A stretch of DNA of 64,000 nt, from the NCBI GenBank assembly GCA_037447655.1, contig JBBHKE010002609.1, forward strand, positions 299,350 through 363,349, in the 5' to 3' direction. The notes beneath the pieces are model-generated. The model was given only the letters and a program-made list of their open reading frames with translations, had not been told where the DNA came from and did no database searches. Numbering within the stretch: position 1 is the stretch's first letter; each line of letters opens with the position of its first letter. Shown piece by piece: positions 22,961 through 55,238 of this stretch. A program made the position numbers and the translations under genes. Origin of the DNA: Zygnema cylindricum. Its lineage: Eukaryota > Streptophyta > Zygnematophyceae > Zygnematales > Zygnemataceae.

Positions 22961-23063
22961 TAAGACGGATAAGTGAGACCCCCATCCACAAGTAGCTTTG
23001 GGCTCTCTTTCGCACGCGCTCCTCTTTCCTCGCTAGGGTGCCCGCTTGAAAAAATTGAGTTGA

Positions 23064-30423: not shown

Positions 30424-31632
30424 AGTTTTCAGCCAATTTTTCATTATGGCTATTTTTCTTCGAGTTGCAATTTGTAAGACTGTTTCATCTGATAAGGGTT
30501 TCAAACAATTTCTTTGAACCAAGTTGCTAGTCACTGATCATTTTTAGGACATAGTATCTCATTGTAAGTCAAGTTCTTTGTTTCAAACCATATAGGAATT
30601 AATGTGGATGAAACTAGATCAAGATACCCTGCCTATCGCTGTTAGATTTAGTAATACTGTTTCGATGCTTACATTTTTGACCCGGAACCATTAATTTGTG
30701 TTAGTAATACTATTTAGTTAAGTGGCCCATGATGAGCCACTTAGCGAAACATTCCTCATATTAAGAAGCTATATTGGGGAGAAAGAACTCAAGGGCAGTT
30801 CTGTCTCCTTTGGCCCTAGACTACATAGAGGTGTACTGGCTATTTTAACACTATGCTTCACTAATTTATACTTCCTGAACCACAAAAAAGCCTGACACAT
30901 ATACTTTGCCTAGAGACCTCTGTGGTTGAGCGAATGGCAACTTTCAAAAGTCAATTTGTAATGATTCATGCCCAAAAGTATAGTTTTGCAAGCGGACTGC
31001 ATGTCTCTGCAAATACTACTCCAAGTCCAGTGATCTAACATTGTCAGTGTAAGCTATTCCCTAATCCAACGAGCTATCAAACGCTTCAAATCGAGCTTTC
31101 TGGATTTCGCTACAGCCGATCAAACATCACTACCCTGACACATTTTGCTATCTGTGACCAACCATAACTTCCTAAAGAAATATCCACATGAACTAAACCA
31201 AAGCTGGTCCTGTTCATATTGGACGTCTAAAATCAGCTGTTGGATCCAAAGGATCGCTCCGCATTGTTTTCACAATACGCCTCTCCGTGGTGGTTGGTAT
31301 TTGTCATCTCGGGGTAGTAAGCTGTCGCGAGTTCTCTCCGGTTCTCCAACTGATTATGGACAGTGTCACCGCACAGTTAGGCATGACAGCTGCACTACAT
31401 GACACTAATGCAATTTACGGAGCGAATGGGATAACACGTACCCTCCCCCCCTCTCTCTCCCTCTCTCTCTCTCTCTCTCCCTCTCTCTCTCTCTCCATAT
31501 GGTCTACTTCACTGTTCGTAATGATTAGTGAAGATGTTATTAGTGTACACACAAGCCCTCTCAGTCTAACATTGCATATTTTTTTGGTGCTTTTTGTTTT
31601 GCCTTGTTTCCTCTCCTCTCCCACTCCACCTG
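30332..31632. other. poly-T runs, then unassigned sequence
   Basis: Two long T runs at about 30341-30360 and 30392-30419, then sequence without recognisable genes up to a CT microsatellite at 31441-31498. At 31633 the right copy of the 1.6-kb repeat starts abruptly. Confidence 0.4.
31441..31498 (+). repeat. CT microsatellite
   Basis: CCCCCCCTCTCTCTCCCTC followed by (CT)n with occasional CCC. Short, with no wider context. Confidence 0.8.
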
Positions 31633-32101
31633 CGCTCCCGCCGATATGGAGGCAACTTCTTCGCGATCAAAATCCTGTTGTACACCATCATCAATGGAGT
31701 TGGGCAAAGGGTTCCTGGAGAGCCCGTCGGCATTCAAGCTGAGGAGCCCGAGTTGATGAATGATTTCCATATCATATTCTTGTAAAATAAGAGCCCAACC
31801 GGCTAATTTGCCAAATAGTTTGTCATTGGTCATAAGCCAATGCAATGGTTGATAGCCAATAAAAAGGGTAAAAGGCTTGCCATAGAGATAATGTCGGGAG
31901 TGCACAATACCCCAAACAGCGGCAAGACATTCTCCCTCGTAACTACTGTAATTTGATTCCGCTTGATTGTTTCTACTGGCGTAGGCCCCCACATATTCCT
32001 CACCACTGAGTTCGCGTTGAGTTAGGAAGGCAACAATACCGAGCTTACCAAAGTCGGTTTGTAGACAAAATGGTAATCTATGATTTGGGGGTCGAAGGAT
32101 G
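31633..32101 (-). pseudogene. Ty3/gypsy RNase H (copy 2, truncated)
   Basis: Identical in protein to 23149-23507 (from the GAYASRNN start to the DFDREEVASISAGA region) and then truncated at 31633. Its 5' continuation, the reverse transcriptase, resumes at 37925 on the far side of Copia A2, which inserted here with GGATG duplicated (32097-32101 and 37925-37929). It carries the same IGYQPL change as copy 1. Confidence 0.88.
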
Positions 32102-32686
32102 TGTTAGGATTAAGTACTGAGCACTCACTTAGCAACGAGATATTTTCGTAGCTAAAGAACCGACGACTAGCGACGAAGGAGTTTCGTCGCTGGATGTTTT
32201 TTGAAGTGACGTAGTAAATTTGATTGTTTGTTTCGTTTCATGCAAGTACTATACTTTGTCGCTGGATGTTTTTTGAAGTGACGTAATAAATTTGATTGTT
32301 TGTTTCGTTTCATGCAAGTACTATAGAAGTAACGTAGAAGTTGTTTGGTAGTTTTGGTTCACTTAAGTCTTGTTGTAACGCGTGATTCAAGTTGATTCGT
32401 GGTTGACTTTTCTAGTCATACAGTGTAGTTCAAGTCGGTTCGTAATTTTCGGTCGTTTTTTTTCGGCACGTTGACTCTTACGCGTTTTTAGTCGTGCACA
32501 TATATATTCTTGTTATGACTTAGTATTAGATTATTTTTTGGAGGCGTAGCTTTTTAAGGAGGCGTAGAAAGGTCAAGAGTAAAAGGAAGGAAGAAAGGAG
32601 TTGTATTTGCATTGTGCTTAATATATTGAATGTTTTGGAGGAACACCATTGTTGTATGTGTATTTTATTTGGTTTATAATCTTTCA
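32102..32686 (+). repeat. 5' LTR of Copia A2
   Basis: 585 bp. It is longer than the 3' LTR because a 72-bp segment beginning TCGCTGGATGTTTTTTGAAG occurs twice (from 32187 and 32259) here but once in the 3' LTR. Confidence 0.93.
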
Positions 32687-32724
32687 ATTAGTATCGGAGC
32701 ACGTTACTGGCAACATTTGCTGGT

Positions 32725-33960
32725 ATGGCTGAGATTGGAAAATCCCTGGCGGAACCTAGTGGAGTAGCTAGTGGGGGAGTTAGTGGAGGAGGAGTTACAA
32801 GGACACAATATGATGAGTATGACGAATGGGGGGAGAACAAAATATATATGGACGAGGGAACGTTTGAACGCTTTCAAAAGTTTCTCAAAACACAAGAAAA
32901 TGATGGAGATGGAGGAGTAAGTGGAGACTCACGCAACTCCAAGAAAATAAAGAAAAAGAAGGGAAAATCTAAACTTTATGAGGAAGAGGAGGAGAGCGAA
33001 GATGATGATTATAAAGTGTTTAATAAAACCATCGTCTTCACGGGATCCAACTATGCAATTTGGAAGAGATACATTCGAGGAGCATTCACACCGAAAAAAC
33101 TTTGGGACATCGTTATCGGGGAAGAAACCCGACCGGATCCTTCCGTGAATCCAGCTAGAGCACATAAGTGGGACAAGAAAGATATGGCGGCCTCCACCGC
33201 ACTTATACAAAGTTGTGCTAGTTCTATGCATGAACACCTTCGGACTCATGATAGGGCTTTTGATTGTTGGATCGCATTGCAAAATGCGTTTGGAAAGGGG
33301 TTTGAGGCAAATGAAAATTATCTCTTTGAAGAATATATTGGGTTTAAAATGAAGGAGAATGATTCCATTGATGATGGAGTCAAAAGGTTTAATGTCAACT
33401 TAACTCACTCAATAACTTTCCTACAGAAATAGAAAGGTTGTTAGTCTTTATGAGGAGTCTTCCAAGCAAGTTTGCGGTAGCAAAAGAGGTTATCAAGGGG
33501 CGAGAGAAACCAACAATAGCATACGCTATCAATCACTTGAAGAGTACGAAGAAGGAGAAAGCAACACCGAAAGAGGAAAACAAGGGGTCATCCTATTAGA
33601 GTTATCAAGAGGAGGATGACGGAGGAGCTTACAACTTTAGGGGATCTAGGGGGAGAGGATGTGGATATCGTGGACGAGGAGGCAGGTCACAGGGCCCAGG
33701 GAGAGGTTTATATCAACGTGATACCTCTCAGATGACTTGTTACAATTGTAACGAGATTGGGCATTGCTCTTTTGAATCCCCAGACAAAAGTAAACACTGT
33801 AAGGTTTGTCATAAATGGGGACACACTGGTCGCGGTTGTTATCAAAACAAGGGAAATAATCGCGGAGGGGGACAATTTAGAGGCGGGGGAAGTGGAGGAA
33901 TTGGTTCATCAAGTAGAGGGGATTTTGTTGGGGATGGGCCAGTGGGATAGGATCAAGAAT
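32725..33960 (+). pseudogene. Copia A2 gag
   Basis: Capsid/nucleocapsid precursor. The ATG at 32725 is 38 bp past the LTR. Residues 60-90 hold a Lys-rich block next to a Glu/Asp-rich block, possibly a nuclear or nucleic-acid-binding patch. Then come the Copia gag pattern IWKRYIRGAF, LWDIVIGEET, FDCWIALQNAFGKGF and FKMKENDSI. The frame is lost at about 33430 (TAG) and stops again near 33598 and 33948. RGG-type repeats follow at about 33650-33700. Zinc knuckles follow at 33732-33830: the first lacks its last Cys (CYNCNEIGHCSFES), the second is complete (CKVCHKWGHTGRGC). Confidence 0.85.
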
Positions 33961-36900
33961 TCTTCATTTCACTTATGGAGGAATCACAGGAAAAAGAGGA
34001 TATCCTATTTCACACACGGGGCAAAGAGAGTAAAGGAAAGTTTAACAATTGGATCATAGACTCAGGTGCTACCCATCACATGTGTTCAGACCCAAGACTA
34101 TTCAGTGATATTAAAAAACTCACTATACCAAAATCCATCATAGTGGCTAACGGTTCGATGATGGTTATTGATACAGTGGGAACAGTACGATTGGATCTAC
34201 CGACACAAGATAGGGAAGGGAAAACTAGAGTCAATAGAGTACGTTCTAATAATGTGCTTTATAATCCGGAGGAGTGCATCAATCTCTTAAGTGTCCCACA
34301 ACTTCAGAGGAAAGGTGGAAGAGCCACATGCATGGAAGGGGGAAGAATCATTTTGAGTAGTAAAACAGGACCATTTGTAGAGGGGGTTGTAACTGAAAAT
34401 ATGCAAAGTCGGCTGATTTGGAGAAAACCAAAAAATAGGACGGCGGACGAAGAAGGGCACCTTCATTCGGCTGATGTCAACAAGCATGACCTCACGTTGT
34501 GGCATCATCGTATGTGTCACACTTCAGAGAGTAATATCAAAGAGGTGATTCATCATGGTGCGGTTCGGGGACTACACGTGACGACAAGAGAAAAGGTTAT
34601 CAGATATGTAGGATGCACAAAAGGGAAGCATAAAAGGAAGCCTCATCCGGTGAAAGACCTTTAGTTCAAAGCGAATACCCCTTTAGACCTAGTTCATGTA
34701 GACCTTTGTGGTGACATTCATCTAGAAACCATTGGAAAAAATAAATACATTATGGTGATAGTTGATGATTTCAGCAGGAAGACATGGGTGTACGTTTTGA
34801 AGGCAAAATAAGAAGCATTAGATACATTTAAAGATTTTGTGGTCATGGCTGAGAGGGAAAGTGGGAGGCAGGTAAAAGCAGTGCGATCGGACCGTGGAGA
34901 TGAATTTCTTGCCTTCGCCGAATATTGTAAGGAGACGGGGATTAAGCAGGAGTTCACGGCTCTTTATTCCCCACAATCAAATAGAATAGCAGAGAGGAAA
35001 AATCGGACATTGCAAGAGATGGTGAGGGCCATGCTCCATAGGACAAAACTCACTCATCGACTTTGGGGAAAGGCAATCAAGGCGGCTAATCATGTTACTA
35101 ACCGGAGAATAAACTCGCCTTTAGATAACAAAATTTCGGAGGAACTTTGGAGTGGACAAGTGCCTACGGTAAAACATTTAAGGATTTGGGGATGTGAGGC
35201 TATAGGGTATGTAGAGGAAAGAAATCGGGAGGGGAAGTTTGCAGCACGTTCATGGGAAGGATACTTTGTGGGATATAGTGAAAACTCGATGCAGTATCGG
35301 ATTTATAATCCCGTTACTAGGAGGGTCCGAGAGTCTAGAAATGTAGAGTTCAATGAAAATTTGGAAAGGATGGTAAAAGGAGCTAATGAGTCTAAACGGG
35401 CCCAAGATTACGAGGAGGATAGTCATTATGAAAAATTCACAAGAGAGGAGGAGGAAGAAGAAAAATTCTTGATGGAGGTAGGGACAAAGAAAAAGGTGCG
35501 ATTTGTAGAGGAGGCTTTAGAGAAAGTTCCAAAACCTAAGTCCACCAGCAACGAAGCACAGGGAGACAAGGTCATTAGAGAATCATCCACTCACACAAAC
35601 AATGTCACACCAGAAAAGACACCTTCTGAGAAAGAGGGTGATGACAAGATTGAGAGCAATGATTCGGATCAAAGAATTTGCAGAAAACAAACGGAGAAGC
35701 AAGAGATCATCGAAAGGGAAGGCACCGAAACGATTCTCACCAAGGCAGTCTTATAAAAAGCAAACCACTTATCAGAGGGCAATTTCTGAGCTTAGAGAAG
35801 GAAGGGCAAAATCCTTTCTCTTATGAAGGGCAATTACAAAAAATCGTCCGGCGGATCCTCAATCATATCAAGAGGCTAGAGACTCGGACGTATGGGAGGA
35901 GAAGTGAAAACCGGCATTTATAAAGGAGTATAACTTTGTGAAAGCAAATGGGTGTTTTGAAGAAGTAGACTTACCAGTTGGTAAAAAGGCGATAGACTCA
36001 AAGTGGGTTTTCAGACAAAGACGGGTGCCTCATGAGAAATTCTTAAGTAAAAGGCGCGGTTAGTATGTAAAAGCTTTTAGCAAAAGGAGGGTATTGATTA
36101 TTCAAAGACTTTTGCTCCAGTGGTAAAGTTTGATTCTTTGCGAGCAATTATTGCAATGGCGGCGGTGGAAGGAATGCATATCCAACAGATGGATGTAGAG
36201 ACAGCTTTCTTACATAGAGAATTAGAAGAGGAGGTGTATATTAAAAGTCATGAAGGAGTTCCTAGAAAGAAAGGAAAAGTATGGAGGTTGTGGAAGGCTT
36301 TGTATGGTTTGAAGCAGGCACGAAGAACATGGAAACATAAGCTTCACAAGGTCTTACTAATTTTGGGATTTAGGAGGCTTACAGCAGATTGTGCAGTATA
36401 TATTCAGGGAGAAGGTAGGGACATGGCAATTTTCAGTGTTTACGTAGATGATTTCATTTCTATCTCTCACAACTTGGATTTACTTCGAGAATTAAAGATT
36501 GAATTTCAAAAGTATTTTAGAATCACACACTTAGGAGATGCACAATACATTGTGGGAATTCAGATTCAGAGGAGGAGGAACGGAGATATTAAGTTGAGCC
36601 AAGAACAATATGCAAAAGAGGTATTGGAAAGATTTGGGTTTTTAGATTGTAAGCCACTTAGAACTCCCGTTGATCCTCGTGATAAGCTTTCTAATTTTGT
36701 TAAAAGTCTTGAGGTTGATGTTCCGTATAGGGAGGCGGTCGGTAGCTTGATGTATTTAAGTGTCGGAACTATACCTCACATTAGTGCCGCAGTGAGTGTT
36801 GTTAGTCGGTATTGTGGCAATCCGAAAAAAGTACATTGGGAGGCGGTGAAGAGAATGTTTAGGTATTTGGCGGGAACACTTAGTCTTGGAATAGCATATA

Positions 36901-37377
36901 AAAAAGATGAAAGCTTGAGTTGATATGGATATTGTGATGTCAACAATGGAGGGGACCATGATTCAGGAAGGTCTACGTCAAAATATGTGTTTCTACTTGC
37001 TGGAGGAGCCATTTCGTGGAATTCCCGTTTGCAACCTACCGTGGCACTTTCATTAACCGAGGCTGAGTATATGGCTGCATGTCATGCTGCGAAAAATTCA
37101 CTGTGGATTAAAGAATTTCTATCGGAGGTTGGAGTGGAAAAAAAATGTATGCAAATACTAAGTGATAATGTCTTCCATTGCGCTTAGTAGAAATCCTATT
37201 TTGCATAAGCGCACTAAACATATTAAAATTCAGTGGCATTTTGTTCGAGATTTAGTTTTGAAAAAAGAAGTTGAATTTGTGTTTGTTCCTACAGAAGAAC
37301 AAGTTGTTGATATGTTAACCAAAGTAGCATTCAATGAAGTTTATGAAATGGGAAAGAGGTTAGTGGGCATGGAGTAA
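33960..37377 (+). pseudogene. Copia A2 pol (PR-IN-RT-RH)
   Basis: Protease at about 34045-34085 (NWIIDSGATHHMC). The GAG-pre-integrase zinc motif is at about 34495 (LWHHRMCHTSES). The integrase core runs from about 34700 to 35060 (IVDDFSRKTWV, RSDRGDEF, and NRIAERKNRTLQ with the catalytic Glu), broken by TAG at 34662 and TAA near 34809. A long Glu/Lys-rich linker runs to 35756. Reverse transcriptase, about 35970-36700, has MDVETAFLHRELEEEVY and an intact YVDD at 36441-36452. RNase H follows (RNase H motif LTEAEYMAACHAAK at about 37050; KRTKHIKIQWHFVRD to 37377). The lesions fall on different amino acids, consistent with random decay. Confidence 0.88.
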
Positions 37378-37411
37378 GACGGGGCTTTGAGTGTCTCAGT
37401 AAGAGGGGAAA

Positions 37412-37924
37412 TGTTAGGATTGAGTATTGAGCACTCACTTAGCGACGAGATATTTTCGTAGCTACGGAAGGGACGACCAGCGACGAAAGAGTTTCGTCGC
37501 TTGATATTTTTTGAAGTGACGTAGTAAATTTGAATGTTTGTTTCGTTTCACACAAGTACTATAGAAGTGACGTAGAAGTTGTTTGGTAGTTTCGGTTCAC
37601 TTAAGTCTTGTTGTACCGCGTGATTCAAGTTGATTCGTGGTTGACTTTTCTAGTCATACAGTCTAGTTCAAGTCGGTTCGCAGTTTTTGGTCATTTGTTT
37701 TCGGCACATTGACTCTTACGCGTTTTTAGTCGTGCACATATATATTCTTGTTATGACTTAGTATTAGATTATCTTTTGGAGGTGTAGCTATTTAAGGAGG
37801 CGTAGAAAGGTCAAGAGTAAAAGGAAGGAAGAAAGGAGTTGTATTTGCATTGTGCTTAATATATTGAATGTTTTGGAGGAACACCATTGTTAAATGTGTA
37901 TTTTATTTGGTTTATAATCTTTCA
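37412..37924 (+). repeat. 3' LTR of Copia A2
   Basis: 513 bp, carrying a single copy of the 72-bp segment duplicated in the 5' LTR. It is preceded by a purine-rich primer and followed by GGATG. Confidence 0.93.
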
Positions 37925-38099
37925 GGATGGGAGCGGTGGACAGTGTGTCCTTTAATCCTTGAAATGCGCCGATCTGAGAGGGTCCCCACGTGAACGGGAC
38001 TGATTTCTTCAAGAGTTCATTTAGTGGAGATGCAAGTGTGCTACAACTTGGAACAAACCACCGGTAATAATTGGCTAACCCCAGGAATGCACGCAGGCT

Positions 38100-38830
38100 A
38101 GTTAAATCAATTTAAGCCGGAAGTTTACTAATTGCTTCCACTTAGACTTCTAGCGGAGTAATTCCCTCATAAAAGATAAAATGCCCAAGGTATGGGACCC
38201 TTTCGGCCCCAAAGGTACATTTGTCAAGATGACATTTAAGTCCTACCTTTTTTAATTCCTTCAACACCCACTCTATATGAACTGCATGTTCCTCTATGAT
38301 AGTCGAAGCGATGATCAAATCATCGATATAGCAACGAGCAAGCTTACACCCCCCCAAGACTGAGTCCATGACCTTTTTATAATACGCGTTGCATTTTTCA
38401 GTCCAAAAGGCATAACCGCCCATTCCCAACGTCCGTCACTACCCCAAAATGCAGTCTTGTGTTGATCCTTTTCCTCTATCTTGATTTGGTAAAACCTGTG
38501 TAGCAGATCTAGGATACTAAAATATTTAGCTCCTCCGACATGATCAAAAATGTCCTCTGCCAACGGTATAGGATGTCTGTCCTGGATCGTACGTGAGTTT
38601 AGTTCTCTTTAGTCCCCACACATACGACGTTCTGTAAAATTACCATCGGTGTCAATTTACGAGGCATGACGGTGGGCGCCACGAAGGTGGAATCGCACCT
38701 ATAAATCAGAACCGCTTACTCTAATTCTGCGCATCGTTTGGCCACGGATTCCCATTCCGTTTTTTATTGACGATGTTTGGGTTTAAATATGGGTTTGTTG
38801 TCCTCTAGGTCGATGGACATTTTCTAAGTG
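38100..38830 (-). pseudogene. Ty3/gypsy reverse transcriptase
   Basis: Read on the minus strand from about 38830 (MSIDLEDNKPIFKPKHRQ, the usual RT entry) through HPIPLAEDIFDHVGGAKYFS, LDLLHRFYQI, KTAFWGSDGRWEWAVMPFGL and GCKLARCYIDDLIIAS (catalytic YIDD at about 38319-38330) to GLKCHLDKCTFGAERVPYLG. This is the classic Ty3/gypsy polymerase order, which copies element RNA to DNA. Stops and at least one frameshift (near 38430) break it. It is cut at 37925 by Copia A2 and continues as RNase H at 32101. Upstream (higher coordinates) lies the methyltransferase in the same orientation. Confidence 0.9.
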
Positions 38831-39349
38831 GAGTGCCGACCTAAGTCTTTCATAGAGAAAGCCAACGCGTCCCTATGTCGGTTAATGACTCCATCTAACA
38901 GTTTGTGTTCAGTTTTTGTTAGACGAGTTCCGTATTTCCATGTCGTATTTTTCAAGCTTCCATGGCTTGTGCAAATGCTAGCTGTTCATCTACTATCAAG
39001 GAGTGCCCCAACTCATACTCGACTAGGAGGTGAAGCAAACAGTTTACTGCGTGATGCCAACTTCTAGCAAGAAATGCAGCTGTCCACTGTGGGGAAACTT
39101 GGGCCGATGCCTAAGACCTAACGGTTTTGTATGATGGGAGAGACCAACCTATATGACTACAGACCAAGAAATCATAAATAGTGTGAGATGTTTCTGACTT
39201 GGCAGCGGAAGGAAAGAGGAAGAGCTAAAAAGTTGTTCCTCGGAGAGAAGGTGCGGACTTAGATGCTATATGTTTAAATGGTGTATGAAATGGTGAATGC
39301 CCCCTCTTAGCTGATTTAGAAGGATTGTTCTGTGCGTATCGACCAATTG

Positions 39350-40383
39350 GAAACCCCATGCCCAAGAAGAATGAAAATGTTTGCGGATCCATGACCCGAC
39401 CAAGTAAGGTGCAGTGCTGCCGCTCGGTGAGTCCCGGGGCGGCAGTAGTGCCTGGAATGAAATGTAAAAGATGTTGTTGTTCTGCAGCAGTTGGTTCTTC
39501 TAAGCTGCCTGTAAGAGTATTCTAAAGTATACCCCGTCAATTATGTGAGTATGCGTTAGAGTGTGGATATGCAACTAGTGTAGACAATGCTCGTAGTGGC
39601 TGGTTCGGAATGTTAAGACCAAATGCAGGAGGATAGTCTGTCTGTATACATGTCTGGACCTTATGAAATGGAAGGAGTGCATCCTGAATTGAGAGGTTAG
39701 GTGGTCGGACAGCGAGGAAAGCTTCTCGGAGCTGACCCATGTCCACCAAGTTAGTCCACTTGGAACGAACCCGAGTGGCCAGTGAACCGTGGCGTGCAGC
39801 ATCGATGATCAACGGTGGTCCAATCAATGATTCATTGCGTTTATAATTAGCGAGAACCGTGGGTCAGGGATCATTATAAGCCGCGATATTTTCAAAGATG
39901 TATATGAAAGGACGGTTTAGTGTTTAAAAGATATGGATAAGACGCACTACCTCAAAGAACACCTTAGTACGCAGTTCTGCAAGACCAAAACCTTTTTCGG
40001 CCCTAGACATACCGTGAGATTCCCATCCGGCAAAGAGGATGTCAATTGGTTCTAATTCCAACAAATGGTGAAATCGTATTAGTTGGATATCCTGTGGTAA
40101 AGCCAAATGCATGTCGTAAAAAGCAAATATGGGTAAGAGGTGAGGATATTATTCATGCAAGATATGACAGTGGTGAAACTGGGAGCTTCTAGCGAAGGGG
40201 TGAATATCTACAAAATAGTAATGATTTACAATAAGACCGTTCCGAAGGCAAGAGAGGAGTGAAGTTTCGATTTTTGCCAAAAGGTCTAAGATAACGAGAC
40301 CGTTTTGGTGAGGTTGCAAATTGACCGGTTTCCAATTAATGGGCAAAAACCCGGACAGATCCTTTGTAATGGAGGGTGGATCC
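39350..40383 (-). pseudogene. cytosine-C5 DNA methyltransferase domain inside the Ty3/gypsy element
   Basis: The minus strand from 40383 shows the ordered motifs of C5 cytosine DNA methyltransferases. Motif I is decayed (NGLVILDLLAKIETSLLSCL, about 40250-40305), then VDIHPFA (motif II region). LALPQDIQLI and PIDILFAGWESHGMSRAEKG correspond to the motif IV loop, where (P/E)C is expected; here it reads ES, so the nucleophilic Cys appears replaced by Ser (about 40010-40040). Next are FENIAA (motif VI ENV, about 39880-39896), and IDAARHGSLATRVRSKWTNL (motif VIII region, about 39765-39825). Finally come FIPGTTAAPGLTERQH and LLGRVMDPQTFSFFLG (motifs IX-X, about 39361-39450). These enzymes transfer methyl from S-adenosylmethionine to cytosine. 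At least three stops (near 40147, 39927, 39865) make it a pseudogene. It lies between protease and reverse transcriptase of the gypsy element on the same strand. DNMT-bearing gypsy elements are known from charophytes; whether this is that family cannot be checked here. Confidence 0.8.
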
Positions 40384-41421
40384 TGCAATTATGTGTCCTC
40401 CATTGGACCACAGAATACAAGAAGCCTCTAGATAGTATTTAACTAACCCACTTTAAGCCACAACCACTGCTGTCTAGGAAGGCAAAATGATAGTTTGACT
40501 GCACCCCTGTGCATTCTGGACTCCCGTGAGTCCATACCAAAAAGAATCAGTGAAAACGGCTAACCGGCCGATAAGTTATAAGGCAGTAAAAATGCTAATT
40601 TGTACAAACTCTCAAAGGGAAAGGTGACTTCCTACCAAAATTTTCTAAGTCATGATTCCCTTTAATAACTTCTATCTACTGAAGTATGGACCAATCAGAT
40701 TACTGTACTGTACCAAAAAGTACTACTGTCGGTGTACATTTTGTACGAACTATGTAGGACAAGGCTATTAAGCGGACGCGTGTCTGCTTTTCACTCGTCC
40801 GTACATTCCTCGGAATTCCCATGACCGAATGTCATATCTCCACGTGGCTCCAGGTCATGCCACGTCACAAAACACCAAAGTGATCACTTTGGGATTCCGG
40901 CGATGATGTGCGCTGTTGGATTTGCGGCGAGACGCAATCTTAGCAGTTATAAATACTTGCGCGACATTTGTTTTGCTCCGAAACAAAATGCGTGGTATCT
41001 GTTTTGAAATAGTGTCGTACTTCGTACTTTCATAAAACTGTATCTTTGCACGCCGTATACAGTTTTAGTTAAATGGATTTGTTCCTTCCTAAATATATAT
41101 ATATATCTATCACATACTATAGCACTTAGCATTGGTCTTAGTCTAACAAGATAAAGCTGACGGCTATCAGCCAACTTGACGAACCGCAGGTACCGGGATC
41201 AAATCCCGGGTCCGTCAAGTATATTTTTAGTAACCTACTGAAAATAACTGCCTGTTGAACTAAGGCAGCCATGGATCAACCACCGTCTCTATCCTTCAGT
41301 GACTACAACAAGTATGGGTGTAGAGAGAGGAGGTGGAGGCAGGCTGTCCGTCCATTTTCTTTTTCTTTCATACTAACATATTAAACCTAGAAAATACTAT
41401 AGAAATCTATTAATTTCAACA
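40384..41421 (-). repeat. 3' LTR of Copia C
   Basis: 1,038 bp. On the minus strand it begins TGTTGAAATTAATAG and ends ACATAATTGCA. It contains the hairpin CTTGACG...CGTCAAG at 41175-41219. Near its end ATGGAGGACACA corresponds to the gag start codon, followed by a stop in this copy. Confidence 0.9.
41175..41219. other. tRNA T-arm-like hairpin in the Copia C 3' LTR
   Basis: Outer stem CTTGACG/CGTCAAG and inner stem CCGGGA/TCCCGG around loop TCAAA. The inner part resembles a tRNA T-arm, but no D-arm or anticodon arm was fitted. The same structure recurs at 52319-52363, 54981-55023 and 60331-60373. Confidence 0.55.
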
Positions 41422-41499
41422 ATCCCCTTATTTTCTAGTCTAATTTTAATTTTTCTTTCAACCCGCATTTTTCCCCACAATATTTTAATTTAGGAGAGG

Positions 41500-44400
41500 G
41501 CACAGGTTTGGTCATCATATCAGCCACCATTTCCTAATCAGGTCTATACACAAGATTTAAAATTTTATTTTCAACTTTTTCTCTAACGAAGCTTAATCTC
41601 ATGTCTATATGTTTTGCTTTGAAATGGTGTTTTGGATTGACTGCAATTGCGATTGCAGCTTGATTATCGCAAAAGATTTCATGCACTCCCTCTTTCATAT
41701 ATCCCAGTTCTTGCAACAATGACTTCACCCACATTAGTTTTTTTACAGAATAAGATGCCATATACTCAGCCTCCATAGTAGACTGAGCAACCACCTTTTG
41801 TTGCTTACTGCTCCAACAGCAAGCACCTTTCCCCACATACAAAACATATCCAGAAGTGCATCTTCTCATAGGTGCATCGGTATAACTGGCATCACTCCAA
41901 GTTGTGATATCAGTGTGCTCCCCTCCCAAATGCAACCATAATTCTCTGGTTCCAACCAGATATCTCACGACTCTCTTGGCTGCCTCACTATCAATCTTCC
42001 TAGGATCATTAAGACTTCTACTGAGTACTCAAACTGTTGCTGCTATGTCCAGCCTAGTAAAGTTCATAAAGTAGATTAAACTTCCTACGACCTGTCTATA
42101 AGGGATAGACTTCATAAACTCTCTCTCCTCTGGACTCATCTGATCGTCTAAGATCATCACTCCTCCTTCTACACTCCCATCACTTATTTTTTTCAAGTCC
42201 ATGGGAGTGGTACAACTGTTAGCATTTTCCATCTGGAATTTCTCAAGCATATTACCTATTGCTTCTTTCTAAGTAAGTCTGATAATCTTCTTCCCCCTAT
42301 CTCTCTCCATTTGGATCCCCAAAATATATTTTGCCTCCCCTAAATCCTTCATATCAAATCTGCCCCTAAGATCTTTCTTTAGCCTATTGATCTTCTCCAA
42401 AGACTTACTCAACAAAAGCAGATCATCCACATAAATTGCAATAAAAATGACACTATTCTCATGTTCAAACATACAGATAGAATGGTCAGAGCTGATCCGG
42501 ATATATCCCAGATCGGTGAGAAACTCATCTAGTTTCTTATTCCATTGTCGGGGAGCCTGCTTCAGTCCATATAAGGACTTTATGAGCCTATAGACTTTGC
42601 TCTCTTCTCCTTCTTCCACGAACCCCTCGGGTTGCCTCATGAAAATTTCTTCCTCTAACTCACCATTAAGAAAAGCAGTCTTAATGTCCATCTTAATGGT
42701 GTATTTCCATGTCTTTTGCTGCTGCCAAACTAAGGAGAATCCTTACTGATGGGAACCAAAAAACTGGAGCAAAGGTCTCCTCATAGTCAATTCCCTCATT
42801 TTGGGTGAACCCCTTCGCTACCAATTGAGCCTTATATCTCTCAATGGTATTATCTGGGTTCAGTTTTAGTTTCAATACCCATTTACACCAAATAGGTTAT
42901 CTATCTGGAGGATAATCTGCTAGTTCCCAAGTATTTGCTTCCATGATAGAAGCCATCTCATCATTTACGGCTCTAATCCATCTTTCTTTCTCTGGACTAT
43001 TAACAGCCTCCGAGAAAGACTGAGGCTCATCTGGGTGAGATAGCTAAGTTACCTTATGAGCAGTTTGTTTTTCTTGTATCCTTTTGCTGCTCCTCTTTCC
43101 TCCCTCAAACTCTGAAGCTGGAATGGATGGAAGTCTTGGATTTCTTCTCACTGTCTCATCGGCTCCCCTGTCCATGGAAGCCGATTCTTGTACCGCTTCT
43201 TCTATCTCCTCGAAGTCCATAGGAGTATGTGAGGTTTCCTGTGAGTCTTCGTATCTTGGATCTCCCCTAAATCTGCAATCACGATTTCACTCATGTCCCT
43301 TTCGGGAACGACCGAGTTCTCCTCACTTTCGGACTCAAATCTGATTTTTATCTTCTTTGTATATTTGAAGGGGTCAAATGACTTCCCTTCATCCATGACA
43401 ACTAAGTGTTTGACCAGAATGATATCTTTCTTTGCTAAGTCATAGACTCTATATCCCTTAACATCTTCATCATATCCCACAAAGTATCCAAGTTTTCCTT
43501 TAGCATCTAGTTTCCAGTTTTTCCTATCCGTGTCAAGACTGTAAACTTGGCTACCGAATACTTTAAGGTGTGAGATATCTGGTTTCCTTCCAACCCATCT
43601 CTCATAAGGTGTCACTCCCTTTATTGCTGAGGTATGGACTCTATTCTTAATGTAGTTGGCACAGTTCATTGCTTGTGCCCAAAATCTCTTTCCTATTTTC
43701 TTATCTGCCAACATACTGCATGAACTATCTTCTAGTTTTCGATTCAACCTCTCAGCTACCCCATTTTGTTCCACGTTATATGGTACAGTTTTCTGGTGCT
43801 GCACTCCCTCATCTCTCAGATATTCTTCAAACTGGTTAGAGGTATATTCCCCCCCATTATCACTCGTTATCCTCTTAATGGGGGTTTCATGCAACTTCTC
43901 ACTCCAGGCTTTATATTCTTTGAAGTAAGTTGATGCTTCAGACTTTGTTTTCAGAAAGTAGACTCTAGAGTATCTAGACCATTCATCAGTTATTGTCATC
44001 ATAAACCTCTTTCCTCCAACCGAAGGTACTTTTGCTGGTCCCCAATTTCTGTGTGGACCAAATCTAACACTTTCTCACTTCTATATGTGGCGGCTTTGGG
44101 AAAGGGAAGTCTGTGAGCCTTACCTTGAGCACAACCACTACAATCATCCATCATTTCATTATCCCCAAACTGAATGCCTTCTACTACCCCAAGCTTTTTC
44201 ATTTCCCTCAACCTATCAAAATGCACATGCCCCAACCGCTTATGCCAAATCATCAACTTAGGAACACCAACATAATAAACATTCTTCTTTTCATTACTCA
44301 GGTTAAGCCTAAACATTCCTTGGCTACCCTTATCTGCCGTGAAGTAAACTTTATTCCCATACTTAGCTGTAAAGACTCCCTTTCTAGTGAAGGTGTCAAA

Positions 44401-44819
44401 CTCCTTGTCATCTAGCACAGACGTAGAGACAAGATTTTTACTCAGCTGAGGAATGTAGAGTACATCTGAGAATGTAAGTATAGAAGTCTTACCCTCCACT
44501 AAGACTTTCAGATCTACTGATCCCACTAGATTTGTAGTAAACACTCTCCCATCCCCATACTTTATCTCTATTATAGGGATCTTTCTTAGCTTAGTGAAGA
44601 GTTCTTTATCACGACACATATGCATGGATGCACCTGAGTCGATAATCCATCCTTCCTGCGGAGCTTCCCGAATTGCTCCAAGGGCACACTTCTATCTCCG
44701 AGGGATCTCCTTCTCCTCCAGACTCTCGTCAAGAAGTATCTCCCCATCCTCCTCAGAGGACTCATCCTCGGTTTCTCCTGTCACTTTTGTAACCACAAGT
44801 GCATTTTTCTTCCCTCCAG
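41500..44819 (-). pseudogene. Copia C protease, integrase, RT and RNase H
   Basis: From high to low coordinates: protease (WIIDSGASMHMCRD, about 44615-44660), GAG-pre-integrase (MIWHKRLGHVHFDRL...CSGCAQGKAHRLP, about 44090-44250), and integrase 44002-43202 (DEWSRYSRVYF, TSDNGGEY, EQNGVAERL: all three acidic residues present). Then come the RT N-terminus (42875-42693), the RT core (42691-42269: MDIKTAFLNGELEEEIF, and [10 protein letters not shown] with the YVDD site) and RNase H (41968-41534: [33 protein letters not shown]). Frames are separated by a few stops and shifts; each block is otherwise well preserved. It is separated from its gag by Copia B at 44820. Confidence 0.9.
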
Positions 44820-44824
44820 AAGAA

Positions 44825-45663
44825 TGTTGTTTTGGAAAGCTTTAGTCCTCTCTATGCCTCGATTGTGAGAGAGAGAGAGTTTCACGACTTAGCATATGTT
44901 TGGTTGTAAGTTCGTTTCATTACACACCAGATTGATGTTCCACTAGATCGGTAGGGAGTACACCTTTGTATACACTCCCAAGACACAAGTCACTACAAGA
45001 AAAAAGACACTCTAGAATATCCGATTGTTTGTGCATAGATATACTTGAGGACAAAATGGCACATGGAGATTTGTCTACGGTGCCGAATGTGATATGTACG
45101 CGGCTGAGGGAGACCACCGACAAATGCTGGTCCGTGTGAACCACATACACGACAAATGACGTGGCATATAGAATTCTACTCCTTTGTAAAAATCTAGTTA
45201 AGTATATTTTTGTCTTTGTGTGGTTAGTTGATTAGTAAAGGAATCTTTTTGTGTGACGTACCTTGTTCGGTTTGAGCCGTAGGTATTTATTGTACGGCTG
45301 GTATGCCTCCGTACGTTCAGCAGCATAGGCTTCAGTGTATATTAGTAGGACTTAGATAACTTTGAAGTTATGAACATTTTGTAGTCAGAAACTGTACAGC
45401 CTGTTTTTGGCATTTTCATCTGTAGATATCTCACAGATCTGTTGGCTGAATTACTTGAAATTTTGTGTATGTGTTTATCCGGATATTATCTACTTTTTGG
45501 TGTATTTGCAGAGCTATTGTGTCTCTGGTTTGGGTTTTATCAACTGTTGAAGTTGCTGTTTTTCAGACCGGTTTTTGTGAAAGTTTCTTGCTTGGTTTGG
45601 TTCCGAGATGACTACACCGGCATCCTCATCGTCTTCGGTTCAGGTTGTTGTCTCAGAACAACA
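44825..45663 (+). repeat. 5' LTR of Copia B, containing the gag start codon
   Basis: 839 bp. The ATG at 45608 opens gag 56 bp before the LTR ends, so the first 18-19 codons are LTR sequence. The boundary is fixed by the identical end of the 3' LTR followed by the AAGAA duplication. Confidence 0.93.
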
Positions 45664-47362
45664 GGTTATGGGCCCACCTTCACGAATTCCGGTTTTTGAT
45701 GGGATAGAATATCTGTATTGGGCAGATCTTGTAAGGTCTTATTTTGTACAAGTGAAGCTTTTTGATGTTGTTAATGGATCTATGGTAGAAACTGATGTAA
45801 ACTATGATCAAAAGAATGAGCAGGCTCTTCATTTGATAAAGTTAATGATATCTAAGGAGCTGCATATGACATACATTCAGGCTTCTAAAGCATCAGAGAT
45901 TTGGGATGCTTTGAAAAAGACATATTCTAGGGCTAATGCACAACATGAGATTATAACTGCTGGGCAGATCTGGGAATATAAGTATACATGCGGAAGCATG
46001 GCAGAATATTGCAATAAATTCAGACTTCTAGTTGCAGAAAATGCATGTTCAGGTGGTTCATTTCCTGAGTATCACCAAGCAATGATTTTAGTGAGAGGGC
46101 TTCCTAGAGAGTATAATGGTGCCTATGATGAACTGAAAAAATTGGATAAGACACAGTGGAATCTAGCTAGAGCTATAGAGTATGTGCTAGAAGAAGAAGC
46201 AAATCAGTTGGCATTCAATTCTGGAAAGCCAGCTGTAGCATACAATGCTCAGTTTCAGAGAGATAATAGATTTCAAGGAAATCAGTCCTTTCAGCAATAT
46301 GAACGGTGTGTCTATTGCTATAATAATGGTCATTTGTACAAGTCTTGTCCTTTGTATATAAAAGCGTGTGAAACAGGTTCTTACCGCAAAGGATGGAAGG
46401 TGAGAGGAGCTCCATTTACACCGAAACCTCCGAGCAAAACCGCAGCTTTTTCAGCGGAGGAAGAGGAACCGGTGAAGGAGATGGAGAAGGAGAAATCAGA
46501 GGTTGTTAGTTTTCCTAAAACTGACGACACCGAGTTCTTTGCAATGGCAAAGATGATGGAGGGAGAGAAAGATCTCGGGTGGATTATGGACTCTGGAAGT
46601 TCCTCCCATATGTGTTCGAACAAATCCTATTTCAAGGATATGACACCTATCCCTACTCGTCAAATCTTTTATGCTTGTGGTGCCACGGTGGAAGCTAATG
46701 CTAAGGGTAGCATAGATCTGAATTGTGAGATAGATGGCAAAGCTGTAAAAAGAACTTTGCATGATGTGTTATATGTGCCTAAATTTAAGAAAAATTTGTT
46801 TTCTACCTCAGTTGCAAAGAGTAAAGGTTTTGATGTTCTTCAGAGCAAAGGCAAAAAGATAGTAAGCAAGGATGGGAGAGTAGCCTTAGTGGGAACTAGA
46901 GGCCCAAACATGTTGTATCGGATGGACCTGGTTAATAAAGTTGATTTTGTGTACTCCAGTGTCCTATCTGAAAATGTTTTGTGGCATAAAAGGCTTGGGC
47001 ATGTTCATAATGAGAGGCTTGAAAAGATGGTGAAGACTTATATGATAGATGGTGTCAAGCTTGGTGAAAAGGAATCCCATGTTTGTGATGGTTGTGCTCT
47101 AGGAAAGCTTCATAAGCTTCCCCTACCACAAACTTCAGATTATCGAGCAAAGGATCTTCTCGGCCTTATCCACTCGGATGTATGGGGACCGGCCAAAGTT
47201 CCTTCTCTTGGTGGAAGGAAATACCTTGTTACCTTCACTGATGACCACTCACGTTTCAACCGAGTGTACTTTATGAAGAAGAAGAGCGAGGTCTTCACAC
47301 ATTTCAAGCATTTCCGGATCTTTGCTGAGAAACTTCACGGGAAATCGATCCTTGCTTTGTGA
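45608..47362 (+). CDS. Copia B gag-protease-integrase (N-terminal part of the polyprotein)
   Basis: An open frame of 584 codons. Residues 1-19 lie within the LTR (Ser-rich MTTPASSSSS) and residues 20-24 (VMGPP) are encoded by the primer-binding site. The gag capsid follows (PVFDGIEYLYWADLVRSYF, then IWDALKKTYSRAN), and a CCHC knuckle at about residues 236-249 (CVYCYNNGHLYKSC). Protease is at about residue 320 (GWIMDSGSSSHMC). GAG-pre-integrase is at about 457 (LWHKRLGHVHNERL, then CDGCALGKLHKLP), followed by the start of the integrase core (TFTDDHSRFNRVYF, first catalytic Asp). It ends at a TGA at 47360 where an Arg before SDNGGEY would be expected, a single-base nonsense change. The product would package RNA, cleave the polyprotein and begin integration. 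It shares a frame with 47408-48340 apart from the stop. Confidence 0.92.
   Translation: MTTPASSSSSVQVVVSEQQVMGPPSRIPVFDGIEYLYWADLVRSYFVQVKLFDVVNGSMVETDVNYDQKNEQALHLIKLMISKELHMTYIQASKASEIWDALKKTYSRANAQHEIITAGQIWEYKYTCGSMAEYCNKFRLLVAENACSGGSFPEYHQAMILVRGLPREYNGAYDELKKLDKTQWNLARAIEYVLEEEANQLAFNSGKPAVAYNAQFQRDNRFQGNQSFQQYERCVYCYNNGHLYKSCPLYIKACETGSYRKGWKVRGAPFTPKPPSKTAAFSAEEEEPVKEMEKEKSEVVSFPKTDDTEFFAMAKMMEGEKDLGWIMDSGSSSHMCSNKSYFKDMTPIPTRQIFYACGATVEANAKGSIDLNCEIDGKAVKRTLHDVLYVPKFKKNLFSTSVAKSKGFDVLQSKGKKIVSKDGRVALVGTRGPNMLYRMDLVNKVDFVYSSVLSENVLWHKRLGHVHNERLEKMVKTYMIDGVKLGEKESHVCDGCALGKLHKLPLPQTSDYRAKDLLGLIHSDVWGPAKVPSLGGRKYLVTFTDDHSRFNRVYFMKKKSEVFTHFKHFRIFAEKLHGKSILAL
45664..45678 (+). promoter_or_regulatory. 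primer-binding site of Copia B (internal tRNA-iMet type)
   Basis: GGTTATGGGCCCACC starts immediately after the LTR. Its complement, GGTGGGCCCATAACC, contains CAT flanked as in the anticodon arm of plant initiator tRNA-Met, and is not a tRNA 3' end with CCA. The Drosophila copia element primes from a half tRNA-iMet with a similar site. Here it also encodes gag residues. Confidence 0.8.
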
Positions 47363-48340
47363 TCTGACAACGGTGGAGAGTATGTATCAAATGCCTTTGC
47401 TGAATACTTGAAAGAAAATAGAATTTCTCATGAGTTTACTGTTCCTTACACTCCGGAACAGAATGGTGTGGCTGAAAGACTCATTAGGACCTTGACTGAA
47501 TGTGCTATGCTTATGATGATGGATAAAGGTGAAGATCCGAAATTTTGGGGGGAAGCTTTTCAGTGTGCTTCTTACATTAGAAATAGAATAGAAACCAGAT
47601 TTGTGAAGGATAAAACACCTTATGAAATGTGGACAGGAAGAAAGCCAAATGTTAGTCACTTTAGAGTATTTGGGAGTAAGTGTTTTATGTTGGATAACCT
47701 TCCAAATTGGAAATTAAGTCCGAAATCTGTACCTGGGATATTTTTGGGCTATGATGATGAGTCCGTAGGATATAGAGTGTATAATCCTCAGAAAAATACA
47801 ATTCAGATTGCTAGGAATATTCAGATCAAAGAAGAAAGTCAATCTGTTGATGTTTTTAGCATGAATGAGGCAGAGAAGGCAGAAAAATTGCAGGAATATG
47901 TCATCCTTGAGCAGATTCCTTTCAAGCAAACAACGGTTTCTTCCTCTCCATCTGAACTACCACATGTTTTGGGGCTGCCTGATCCACCTACTATTACAAC
48001 TACTACCGGACCTCCTCCTCCTCCTCCTCCTCCAAGACTGCCTCGGCAACCAACAATTCTCGCTTCAGATTTTCCGGAGGGAAGAAGACAAAGCAGCCGG
48101 CTGAGAGGTGACCGAGTGGATCATGCTTATTCTGCAATCACAAGGGAGCCTCTTACCATTCAAGAAGCTTTCTCCGTTCCGGAAAAAGATCTGTGGATTG
48201 CTGCGGCGAATGACGAGATAAAGTCAATTATGGAGGCTCAAACTTGGGAGTTTGTGGAACTTCCACCGGATCAAAAAGCGATTGGTTGTAAGTGGGTATT
48301 CAAGTTAAAACTGAATCCCGATAATACCATTGAAAGATAA
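47363..48340 (+). CDS. Copia B integrase C-terminal half to RT start
   Basis: Continues the polyprotein after the TGA: SDNGGEY (second catalytic Asp, upstream of the first ATG in this stretch), then FTVPYTPEQNGVAERLIRTL (catalytic Glu), PNVSHFRVFGSKCF and FLGYDDESVGYRVYNP. A variable linker follows with eight consecutive Pro at about 48009-48032. The RT entry is AIGCKWVFKLKLNPDNTIER. It ends at TAA (about 48338) where Tyr is expected before [14 protein letters not shown]. Apart from the two stops the frame is intact. Confidence 0.9.
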   Translation, partial: SDNGGEYVSNAFAEYLKENRISHEFTVPYTPEQNGVAERLIRTLTECAMLMMMDKGEDPKFWGEAFQCASYIRNRIETRFVKDKTPYEMWTGRKPNVSHFRVFGSKCFMLDNLPNWKLSPKSVPGIFLGYDDESVGYRVYNPQKNTIQIARNIQIKEESQSVDVFSMNEAEKAEKLQEYVILEQIPFKQTTVSSSPSELPHVLGLPDPPTITTTTGPPPPPPPPRLPRQPTILASDFPEGRRQSSRLRGDRVDHAYSAITREPLTIQEAFSVPEKDLWIAAANDEIKSIMEAQTWEFVELPPDQKAIGCKWVFKLKLNPDNTIER

Positions 48341-49721
48341 AAGGCTAGGCTTGTTGCTAAGGGGTATAGCCAGAAAGAGGGCATTGATTATGAAGAGACG
48401 TTCTCACCTGTAGTTCGTTTTCCTACTGTTAGGATTCTCTTATCTTTAGCAGCAATAGAGGATATGGAATTGCATCAAATGGATGTGAAAATAGCTTTCT
48501 TGCATGGGGATTTGGAGGAAGTTATATATATGAAGCAACCAGAGGGATATGTAGAAAAAGGGAAAGAAAATCTGGTCTGTAAATTGTTGAAGTCCCTTTA
48601 TGGTCTGAAGCAGGCTCCACGACAGTGGAACCTAAAACTGGATGAATTTTTGACAAATCTTGGCTTTACTAGAATCAGTTCAGATCATTCAGTTTATGTT
48701 ATGGAAGGGGAAGATGGAGTGATATATATTGCTGTTTATGTTGATGATTTGCTGTTGCTAAGCAAATCCATTAATGAAATCAACAAAATAAAATCAGCTC
48801 TAAATTCCCGGTTCGAAATGAAAGATTTAGGGGAGGCTAAGTATATTTTGGGAATTCAGGTAGAAAGGGATAGAAAACAAAGACTAATTTTTTTGACACA
48901 GAAGGAAGCCATTGGAAACATGCTTGAAAGGTTCGGCATGTCAGAGGCAAAAGGAAGTGTTACTCCCATGGAGTTCAGACAGAAAATAGAAGGGAAAGAA
49001 TCACATGGTGGGGTTGTGATTGATGACTCTTTGGAGTCAGGGGAGGCAGATTTTATGTCCTCCATTCCTTACAGGCAGATCGTCGGAAGCCTCATCTACT
49101 TCATGAACTGTACCCGTCCGGATATTGCAGCAGCTGTTGGAGCCTTAAGCCGAATTTTGCAAAATCCAAAGAAGTCAGATTGGGAGGCAGCAAAGAGAGT
49201 TCTTCGATATCTTGCAGGAACTCGAAACCTCCGACTCTCTCTCGGTGGAGAGGAAGTAAAAATTCAGACATGGAGCGATGCGAGCTAGGAGATATGCCAA
49301 GCCGACGCTCTACTAGTGGATACATTCTCAAGATTGGAAGTGGGACATGCTGCTGGAGCAGCAAACTTCAGAAGGTGACAGCTCAGTCTACTATGGAGGC
49401 TGAGTACATGGCGGCTAGCGCAGCCGTCAAAGAGTTACTTTGGGTAAAGTCTCTCCTTCAAGAGATTTTGTTTATGCAACCAGACCTCAGGTAGTGTGGT
49501 GTGACAATCAGGCTGCCATTGCTATTGCATCTAACCCTAGCCATCACTTTAAGAGCAAACACATTGATATCAAGCTACACTTTGTGAGAGAGAAGGTTAT
49601 GGGAAGAGTTCTGAAACTCAGTTATTTACCAGATGAGGAGATGGTTGCTGACATGATGACTAAACCATTGCCTGCACCTAAATTAGAGTTTTGCAGAGAG
49701 GCATGTGGCTTAAGTGGCTAG
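48341..49721 (+). CDS. Copia B reverse transcriptase and RNase H
   Basis: RT continues [49 protein letters not shown] and an intact YVDD at 48737-48748, to [20 protein letters not shown]. RNase H begins with TWSDAS at about 49285. A one-base loss there shifts the frame (CTSGYILK-like [38 protein letters not shown]), and a second shift near 49490 leads to [17 protein letters not shown] and [14 protein letters not shown], ending at 49721. RT makes cDNA and RNase H removes the RNA. The catalytic residues are present but the polyprotein is broken by two shifts. Confidence 0.9.
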
Positions 49722-49744
49722 CAGAGTCTAAAGCTTTAGGGGAG

Positions 49745-50583: not shown

Positions 50584-50588
50584 AAGAA

Positions 50589-51505: not shown

Positions 51506-51512
51506 CCTAGAG

Positions 51513-51527
51513 GGTGGGCTTATAACC
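51513..51527 (-). promoter_or_regulatory. primer-binding site of Copia C (internal tRNA-iMet type)
   Basis: On the minus strand GGTTATAAGCCCACC, adjoining the 5' LTR end. It has two changes from the perfect GGTTATGGGCCCACC of Copia B and D. Confidence 0.75.
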
Positions 51528-55225: not shown

Positions 55226-55238
55226 CTCCCCTTATTTT

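Follow-up and report, generated by a model that had tools for sequence, protein, structure and literature searches.

A decayed Ty3/gypsy-type retrotransposon of Zygnema cylindricum with a probable DNMT3-type methyltransferase domain, and its relatives in the host genome

It is asked here whether a cytosine-C5 DNA methyltransferase (DNMT) sequence on the minus strand of a 64,000-nucleotide stretch of Zygnema cylindricum DNA (the window, i.e. the whole stretch analysed) belongs to the gypsy retrotransposon remains on either side of it, and if so, what kind of enzyme it is. On the whole, with a probability of about 0.8, we read the feature as a DNMT3-type domain belonging to a Ty3/gypsy-type retrotransposon that codes, in this order, for gag, protease, DNMT3, reverse transcriptase (RT), RNase H, DDE integrase and a PHD finger. 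In the window this element occupies the minus strand between 63679 and 19408, in a nested arrangement with other elements, and the parts are as follows.

62699..63679, minus strand: repeat A1, the 5' end of the gypsy element, starting TGTCATGG; 86-92% identical to A2 in three pieces, its end mapping to the B1|A2 junction
60576..61063, minus strand: N-terminal part of gag, in frame with 54234 after removal of copia3; 46-80% identical to relatives where matched, with no Pfam match
54235..60575, minus strand: insertion of copia3 into gag, with LTRs at 54235-55225 and 59585-60575 that are 91% identical; Pfam RVT_2 and Retrotran_gag_2; target duplication AATTA/AATTG
53731..54234, minus strand: C-terminal part of gag with zinc knuckle; zf-CCHC E 0.0045, below the cut-off
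53013..53174, minus strand: aspartic protease with D-T-G; Asp_protease_2 E 0.027, below the cut-off; 58-82% identical to relatives where matched
40384..52566, minus strand: copia1, between the protease and DNMT parts; LTRs 91% identical; target duplication GATCC/AATCC
44825-50583: LTR element nested inside copia1; target duplication AAGAA
39228..40383, minus strand: probable DNMT3-type C5-methyltransferase domain, decayed, recognised by motifs, PDB matches and shuffles
37930..38970, minus strand: reverse transcriptase, frameshifted; RVT_1 6.3e-7 and 1.1e-10 in two pieces; PDB Ty3 RT 1.3e-7
32102..37924, plus strand: copia2, between RT and RNase H; target duplication GGATG/GGATG
31631..32096, minus strand: start of RNase H adjoining copia2; second copy at 23618-23067
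23067..23618, minus strand: RNase H; RT_RNaseH 1.2e-23
22175..23032, minus strand: frameshifted integrase comprising an H2C2 zinc domain and the core; Integrase_H2C2 2.3e-12; the C-terminal piece of the core shares 59-81% identity with family-1 relatives
21671..21805, minus strand: PHD finger at the integrase C-terminus; PF00628 8.2e-11
21373..21617, minus strand: repeat B1, 92% identical to B2
19654..21368, minus strand: repeat A2, broken at about 19950-20709 by an LTR-like piece
19408..19654, minus strand: repeat B2, the 3' end of the element, ending CACGATA; flank TTTG, against TCTG at the 5' end

The list shows the order gag, protease, RT, RNase H, integrase of Ty3/gypsy elements together with a Ty3-like RT, and the integrase is of the DDE type with an H2C2 zinc domain. 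Its D, D and E motifs stand at 22708, 22524 and 22420, and the core pieces of the window copy have no integrase match in Pfam. The sequence-only reading had placed the methyltransferase between a D-T-G protease and a gypsy RT and had paired it with a PHD-tailed integrase. Both neighbours are indeed there, the protease as a weak match (0.027) and the RT at RVT_1 1.1e-10, and the PHD finger is found downstream of the integrase at PF00628 8.2e-11. As for the rest of the window, the zinc-knuckle piece of the gypsy gag has a further gag-like match at 2560-2679, weak at 40% over 42 aa, and Rfam and tRNA scans of the window gave nothing.

The six motif strings from which the domain was originally recognised, including LVILDLL, FENIA and LLGRVMD, all fall in one minus-strand frame (40298-39387) in the right order, as had been claimed. 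Over 40388-39228 this frame has 5 stops in 387 codons, the remaining two frames having 12 and 23, and as few as 5 stops were reached by none of 2000 shuffles (mean 18.2). All 29 PDB sequences matched by the window domain at E<=10 are DNMT3A, 3B or 3C, the best at 7.3e-6, and its Smith-Waterman score against human DNMT3A is 136, shuffles giving 37 ± 6 and none of 1000 scoring as high. Taken alone, the part with motifs IV-VIII is significant in this comparison (0/1000 shuffles), and the motif I part (91/1000) and the IX/X part (141/1000) are not. The motifs are separated by 89, 45, 41, 35 and 87 residues, the corresponding distances in DNMT3A being 72, 49, 35, 37 and 61. The domain span first proposed, 40383-39350, is right at its upper end, 40383 being the last base before the copia1 LTR, and too short at the other, where the domain frame extends to 39228. 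Profile searches of the decayed copy stay under the cut-offs (PF00145 in Pfam at E 0.2-0.3; NCBIfam dcm at E 0.0056), so that the PF00145 check proposed for this locus fails on the window copy itself and succeeds on an intact relative described below (4.6e-12, above the cut-off). In addition, structure prediction from the window copy alone reaches a mean pLDDT of only 35.6, and no relative turned up when IMG/VR was scanned with the RNase H and with a single DNMT piece. The catalytic Cys of DNMT3A is replaced by Ser (codon TCT, 40019-40017), and since motif IV reads G-W-E-S-H-G the nucleophile is gone; with the 5 stops in the DNMT part and the loss of this Cys, the window copy is dead.

The methyltransferase part is separated from the protease part by copia1. 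Each of the three copia elements has a 5-bp target duplication, and when any of them is removed in silico the gypsy frame is open for 75 bases to the left and to the right of the site. The three empty sites with an open frame mean that gag, protease, DNMT, RT and RNase H belong to one element, which is older than the insertions. The divergences of the repeats fit this order of events, K2P distances being 0.07-0.15 for the gypsy repeats, 0.094 for copia1, 0.093 for copia3, 0.053 for copia2 (432 columns only) and 0.028 for the element nested in copia1. Further repeats are also seen in the window. A 1611-bp direct duplication (99%) joins 23146-24755 and 31631-33241, 8.5 kb apart, and covers the gypsy RNase H and part of copia2; it may have arisen by rearrangement in the genome or only in the assembly, and the 6.9 kb between the duplicates start with the end of a copia3-family LTR. 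A large palindrome lies at 27452-28419, matching its own reverse complement over 985 columns at 85%, and long purine-rich and (AATGTG)n-like tandem arrays occupy 6875-8000, 8989-10383 and 12243-13730, with GC skew up to 0.83. The piece in A2 (19955-20709) is related to the LTR of the 44825-50583 element and is perhaps a solo LTR; within A1, a 65-bp unit occurs twice at 62934-63064, close to the position at which A2 has its interruption.

By chance, a piece of a host DNMT3 gene, or a processed pseudogene of one, could have come to lie beside gypsy debris. For such an origin speak the decay of the window copy, its nesting among other elements, and two in-frame stops that separate the protease part from the site of copia1; against it speaks the open frame that runs across the copia1 empty site into the DNMT. 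The relatives in the host genome (352,776,454 bases in 2689 contigs) speak against it as well. A PF00145 search of the genome gives 123 scored places among 782 candidates, and a search with the window DNMT frame gives 107 matches of 1825 candidates including the window copy, all at E<=7e-132. The 107 are a lower bound, so that there are at least 106 further close matches beyond the window copy; 19 of the 107 have no stop inside the match. From the 123 PF00145 places we fetched 20 stretches, picked for long frames and for both match types and hence not a random sample. All 20 have DNMT, RT and RNase H matches, 19 have the integrase (the exception being L022), and 16 have the PHD finger, its C4HC3 pattern being present in nine. 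The DNMT stands upstream of the RT, within one copy and in one orientation, in 19 of the 20; the other, L025 (G000:C46:188500-198400), has two facing copies in part, with RT-to-PHD of one beside protease-DNMT of another. The intact relative that had been sought was found in L009, where one open frame of 2395 aa runs from gag to PHD with the whole domain order. Its pieces match PF00145 at 4.6e-12, RVT_1 at 1.7e-30, RNase H at 3.9e-35, Integrase_H2C2 at 1.5e-15, rve at 1.5e-12 and PHD at 2e-10, the zinc knuckle (8e-4) and the protease (0.0038) being below their cut-offs. With the arrangement repeated in 19 of 20 fetched loci, one relative in a single open frame and at least 106 further matches, the chance neighbourhood of a host gene fragment is hardly credible, and the outcome that would have refuted the sequence-only reading, intact relatives tracing the domain to an unrelated host gene fragment, was not observed. 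The methyltransferase is thus an unpermuted, DNMT3-type C5 domain within the gypsy polyprotein, as the sequence-only reading held for its place in a gypsy element, and the window copy is a real though decayed representative of a large group of retrotransposons that have captured a DNMT3 and in part still have open frames.

The group falls into two families. The second (L019-L023 and others) is 31-35% identical to the first in the DNMT and 41-55% in the RT, and has the same order from DNMT to PHD; no match to its gag and protease is obtained from the window pieces. Trees of DNMT and RT show the same families and subclades, the placement of the short window RT piece being poorly supported. Because the families share their order and their trees are congruent, the capture of the DNMT most likely predates the split of the two families, and it looks old. 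Other sequences were met in the searches besides these elements. On the G000 contigs C519, C2590 and C1116, numerous LHC exons of similar sequence lie in clusters, some in each orientation. For one LHC exon (L047) the best PDB match is 9vfj, a protein of two domains, the better of which scores 304 bits; the best matches with a single domain are 8htu_U and 7xqp_a (460 bits; 199 of 216 residues identical in 8htu_U), and further ones are 8c29 at 434 bits, others near 430 and 6kac at 402. We take 8htu_U and 7xqp_a to be moss proteins, 6kac to be from Chlamydomonas, and some of those near 430 bits to be from seed plants. Together with a chromomethylase-like exon in L007, described below, this exon indicates a green-lineage host, probably a streptophyte, and neither exon tells a land plant from an alga. 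In the assembly no match was obtained for the Rubisco large subunit, nor for dirigent, whose search was equally silent in the control genomes and so shows nothing firm.

As for the type of the enzyme, a profile of 20 DNMT domains places 29 DNMT3A/B/C sequences at the top of 85 in the PDB, the best at 1.3e-19, followed by bacterial enzymes (1e-8), DRM2 (5e-7, its match being confined to the I-IV part), DNMT2 and DNMT1; an intact copy likewise finds DNMT3 best, at 1.6e-10. The model built from the family alignment has a mean pLDDT of 57 and a pTM of 0.64, with 164 of 354 residues under pLDDT 50, and in a structure search with it all of the best 50 of 651 matches are DNMT3 entries. In some DNMT3A chains a single profile stretch spans motif I to motif VIII. 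Where motif I and motif X of the family profile are matched as separate stretches, their independent E-values are 1.5 and 340. For motif I the relatives add support, the PF00145 match of L009 starting at position 3 and family 1 reading DLFAGIGT; motif X is placed by co-linearity only. The elements thus share with DNMT3A and DNMT3B, their best match by sequence and by fold, an unpermuted catalytic domain, and differ from them in the ADD and PWWP domains, neither of which is found in the L009 pieces (Pfam, E<=0.01), and in having, in family 1, Glu for Pro before the catalytic Cys. In passing, the search also met a host-gene exon like a plant chromomethylase (L007, 1501-1749), whose best PDB matches are 9mvy, 7ubu and 4fsx at about 3e-28, the next being at 2e-12, and whose PDB matches are all labelled DNA methyltransferase 1. 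We take 4fsx to be maize ZMET2, a chromomethylase, and 9mvy and 7ubu to be plant chromomethylases as well. Chromomethylases have been identified exclusively in plants according to the text of PMC9861306. A DRM gene was considered as the identity of the element domain and rejected, for motif IV precedes VI and VIII here; plant DRM methyltransferases are likewise related to DNMT3, but the element domain keeps the unpermuted order, and in DRM the motifs are rearranged with VI-X ahead of I-V, as described in the same text.

Motif IV divides the two families. Family 1 reads E-C-Q-G in every one of the 15 distinct places fetched, its Glu being encoded by GAA in some and by GAG in others, and the residue preceding the Glu-Cys pair is Trp in 13, Ser in one and a stop in one. 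Family 2 reads G-W-P-C-Q-G in nine of nine places. The Pro-Cys pair is a signature of the C5-methyltransferase class; it is present in family 2, absent from family 1, and Glu-Ser in the window copy. Across the 20 aligned domains the Cys, the Gln, the Glu-Asn of motif VI and one Arg of motif VIII are invariant. The Glu-Cys of family 1 could mean a reduced or changed activity, and compared with Pro-Cys it may be a form apparently unreported for a DNMT, to judge from the parts of the literature searched.

Rates were computed for family 1 in 12 of the 15 fetched loci (all except L016, L017 and L026), with pieces having stops or less than 60% coverage dropped, so that 10 of the 12 were kept for the DNMT; since a sequence can enter several pairs, the pairs are not independent. 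In comparisons between family-1 subclades pN/pS is, for the DNMT, 0.19 with pS 0.80 (35 pairs, 10 copies), for the RT 0.07 (27 pairs) and for the PHD 0.14 (35 pairs). The dN/dS values, from pairs with dS of 0.05-1.5, are in family 1 0.29 for the DNMT (8 pairs) and 0.15 for the RT (5 pairs); in family 2 they are 0.26 (20 pairs) and 0.23 (3 pairs). The DNMT domain is under codon-level constraint, weaker than that of the RT. These data bear on the idea that the domain of the Glu-Cys family has been kept for a non-catalytic job, such as DNA binding or particle assembly. The lower constraint on the DNMT than on the RT would agree with such a job, as would the Glu in place of Pro at 15 of 15 family-1 places in two codons, but the Cys, the Gln and the residues of motifs VI and VIII are invariant, Pro-Cys-Gln stands in nine of nine family-2 places and the domain evolves under constraint, which makes us regard it as unlikely. 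The retained enzyme is still preferred. The element may have methylated its own or host DNA, as the sequence-only reading supposed, the window copy itself having lost the catalytic Cys and acquired stops. CpG observed/expected is 0.79-0.90 in the window copy, 0.89 in L009 and 0.94 in L012; it is 0.62 in L019 and 0.31-0.67 in the copia elements of the window. CpG is thus not depleted in family 1, and heavy self-methylation over time is not suggested.

It is also of interest how these elements end and insert. The repeat order in the window on the minus strand is A1, coding region, B1, A2, B2, and both outer ends of the element map to the internal B1|A2 junction within a few bases. Two full LTRs directly flanking the coding region are not what is found; the arrangement A-coding-B-A-B is that of split direct repeats of the DIRS type. 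Among nine genomic places inspected besides the window, the full arrangement is present in five (C1344, C829, C449, C1374, which has an extra B-like stretch further upstream, and C2602), two are partial (C1407 with B-A-B only and C1915 without the far end), and in the other two (C544 and C2577) no split repeats are found within 5 kb. The element ends can be read in six copies. TGTCATG opens five of them and CACGACA closes them, the window having the variant CACGATA; in C1374, of family 2, the two ends are TGTCAAG and CTCGACA. The internal junction CACGACA-GC-TGTCATG is exact in seven of the 22 loci searched. The 4-bp flanks are identical in three of the six copies (TTGG, AAGG and CCCC), agree at three of four letters in two (C449 and the window), and do not match in C1374, so that a short target duplication with TG...CA ends is found for family 1 only; the TG...CA ends for this reading were fixed after the first copies had been seen. 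A G-run precedes B1, and by eye no TGG primer site follows A1. Identity between the repeats of C1344 is 100% for A and 99.6% for B, and in C2602 the A repeats are 99.5% (552 columns seen) and the B repeats 100% identical (191 columns seen); these near-identical repeats point to recent movement. The ends and duplications can be read as DDE-type joining of a linear TG...CA product, and the two bases between CA and TG at the internal junction may be those lost at integration. The tyrosine recombinase and missing target duplication of DIRS elements are not what is seen; there is a DDE integrase, with duplications in part of the copies.

Capture of a DNMT by retrotransposons is known in charophytes, as the sequence-only reading had stated, a DNMT3 in a gypsy pol having been published in 2018 (de Mendoza et al., PMC5890265). 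That paper describes KnitGypsy-Dnmt3 of Klebsormidium nitens, with Dnmt3 within the LTR gypsy pol frame, a DIRS-like repeat arrangement, several copies, purifying selection on the DNMT and conserved key amino acids; when tried in yeast its DNMT was not active, which the authors deem inconclusive. The text of PMC12344493 repeats the streptophyte and dinoflagellate cases and labels the LTR ones Copia, and that of PMC6338049 gives DNA-methylase transposons as absent from land plants, which a land-plant host would have contradicted. The Zygnema elements have in common with KnitGypsy-Dnmt3 the Dnmt3 in the gypsy pol frame and the DIRS-like repeats, the latter not found in two of nine places. They are set apart, in a comparison of texts only, by the PHD after the integrase, the Glu-Cys in one family and the 4-bp target duplications, features that may yet be shared. 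The place of the domain between protease and RT, which along with the PHD pairing the sequence-only reading thought possibly new, may be new or shared as well. The elements could therefore be plain members of the published family with no new feature, as a green-lineage host and a gypsy pol with Dnmt3 and DIRS-like repeats as in PMC5890265 would suggest. Set against this are the main text of that paper, in which, figures and supplements aside, PHD does not occur, and its compared sections, which have neither target duplications nor Glu-Cys and report key amino acids as conserved. We consider such plain membership a real possibility, if a somewhat less than even one, and take the element as the published kind of DNMT3-carrying gypsy with features that may be new.

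Other known elements share single features. SymbioDIRS-Dnmt3 is alike in its Dnmt3 in pol and its split repeats but has a tyrosine recombinase, in place of the DDE integrase with H2C2 found here (main text of PMC5890265). In chromoviruses a Ty3-type pol likewise has a chromatin reader at the integrase C-terminus, there a chromodomain, while the Zygnema elements have a PHD finger, a DNMT domain and split repeats; PHD and methyltransferase are absent from the main text of PMC6317226. A plain chromovirus was also rejected as the identity, with no chromodomain match in the scanned pieces and a PHD instead. The LTR elements Juno, Vesta and TelKA of bdelloids have an extra enzyme between protease and RT as well, a dUTPase where the Zygnema elements have the DNMT (text of PMC5408684). 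In the portions of the literature searched, including PMC3286476, PMC10538959 and PMC12477816, no PHD-tailed DNMT gypsy, Glu-Cys DNMT or target duplications on a split-repeat gypsy were found.

From these parts a way of working can be proposed. The polyprotein would be cut and packaged, and the DNMT would methylate either the new cDNA or the DNA at the insertion site. As the DNMT travels in pol with the RT, cDNA methylation is a natural idea, and one already proposed for the Symbiodinium elements by the 2018 authors (PMC5890265, main text). Similar PHD fingers occur in KDM5, UHRF1 and BAZ2. Several of these bind the histone H3 tail with unmodified K4. The PHD finger would thus tie the integrase to histone H3 tails and may guide integration, by analogy with chromoviruses, and the DDE integrase would join the linear TG...CA product to its target. 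New copies would probably benefit by bearing the same marks as the chromatin of the host or by being protected against damage to their cDNA, as has been suggested for the cases already published. DNMT3 acts as a de novo silencer in other systems. From this general knowledge the domain may instead be thought to restrain the element or aid the host by silencing new copies and so cutting their carrying cost, a view raised in the 2018 discussion (PMC5890265). Copies with A repeats 99.5-100% identical have moved recently despite the domain, and we doubt the silencing role accordingly, preferring a benefit to the element.

Finally, we come to what these elements may mean. We put forward, tentatively and as a reading rather less probable than its alternatives together, that each of them is a complete insertion unit able both to write and to read marks on chromatin, in which the DNMT3 would mark, the PHD would read H3 and the DDE integrase would insert a split-repeat element with a 4-bp duplication, the Glu-Cys enzyme of family 1 being catalytically distinct, perhaps with a different substrate, RNA:DNA hybrids for instance. 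The Glu-Cys pair has been kept while synonymous sites are near saturation, and either the Pro-Cys pair is dispensable or the function has changed. The occurrence of split repeats along with target duplications suggests that a tyrosine recombinase is no necessary companion of DIRS-like repeats. The elements also pose the puzzle of why a retrotransposon carries an enzyme that usually silences it, and with two diverged families, more than 100 stretches in Zygnema that carry a DNMT and differ in age, and frames that are still open in some of them, this puzzle becomes testable by comparison of copies and by assays of the domains.
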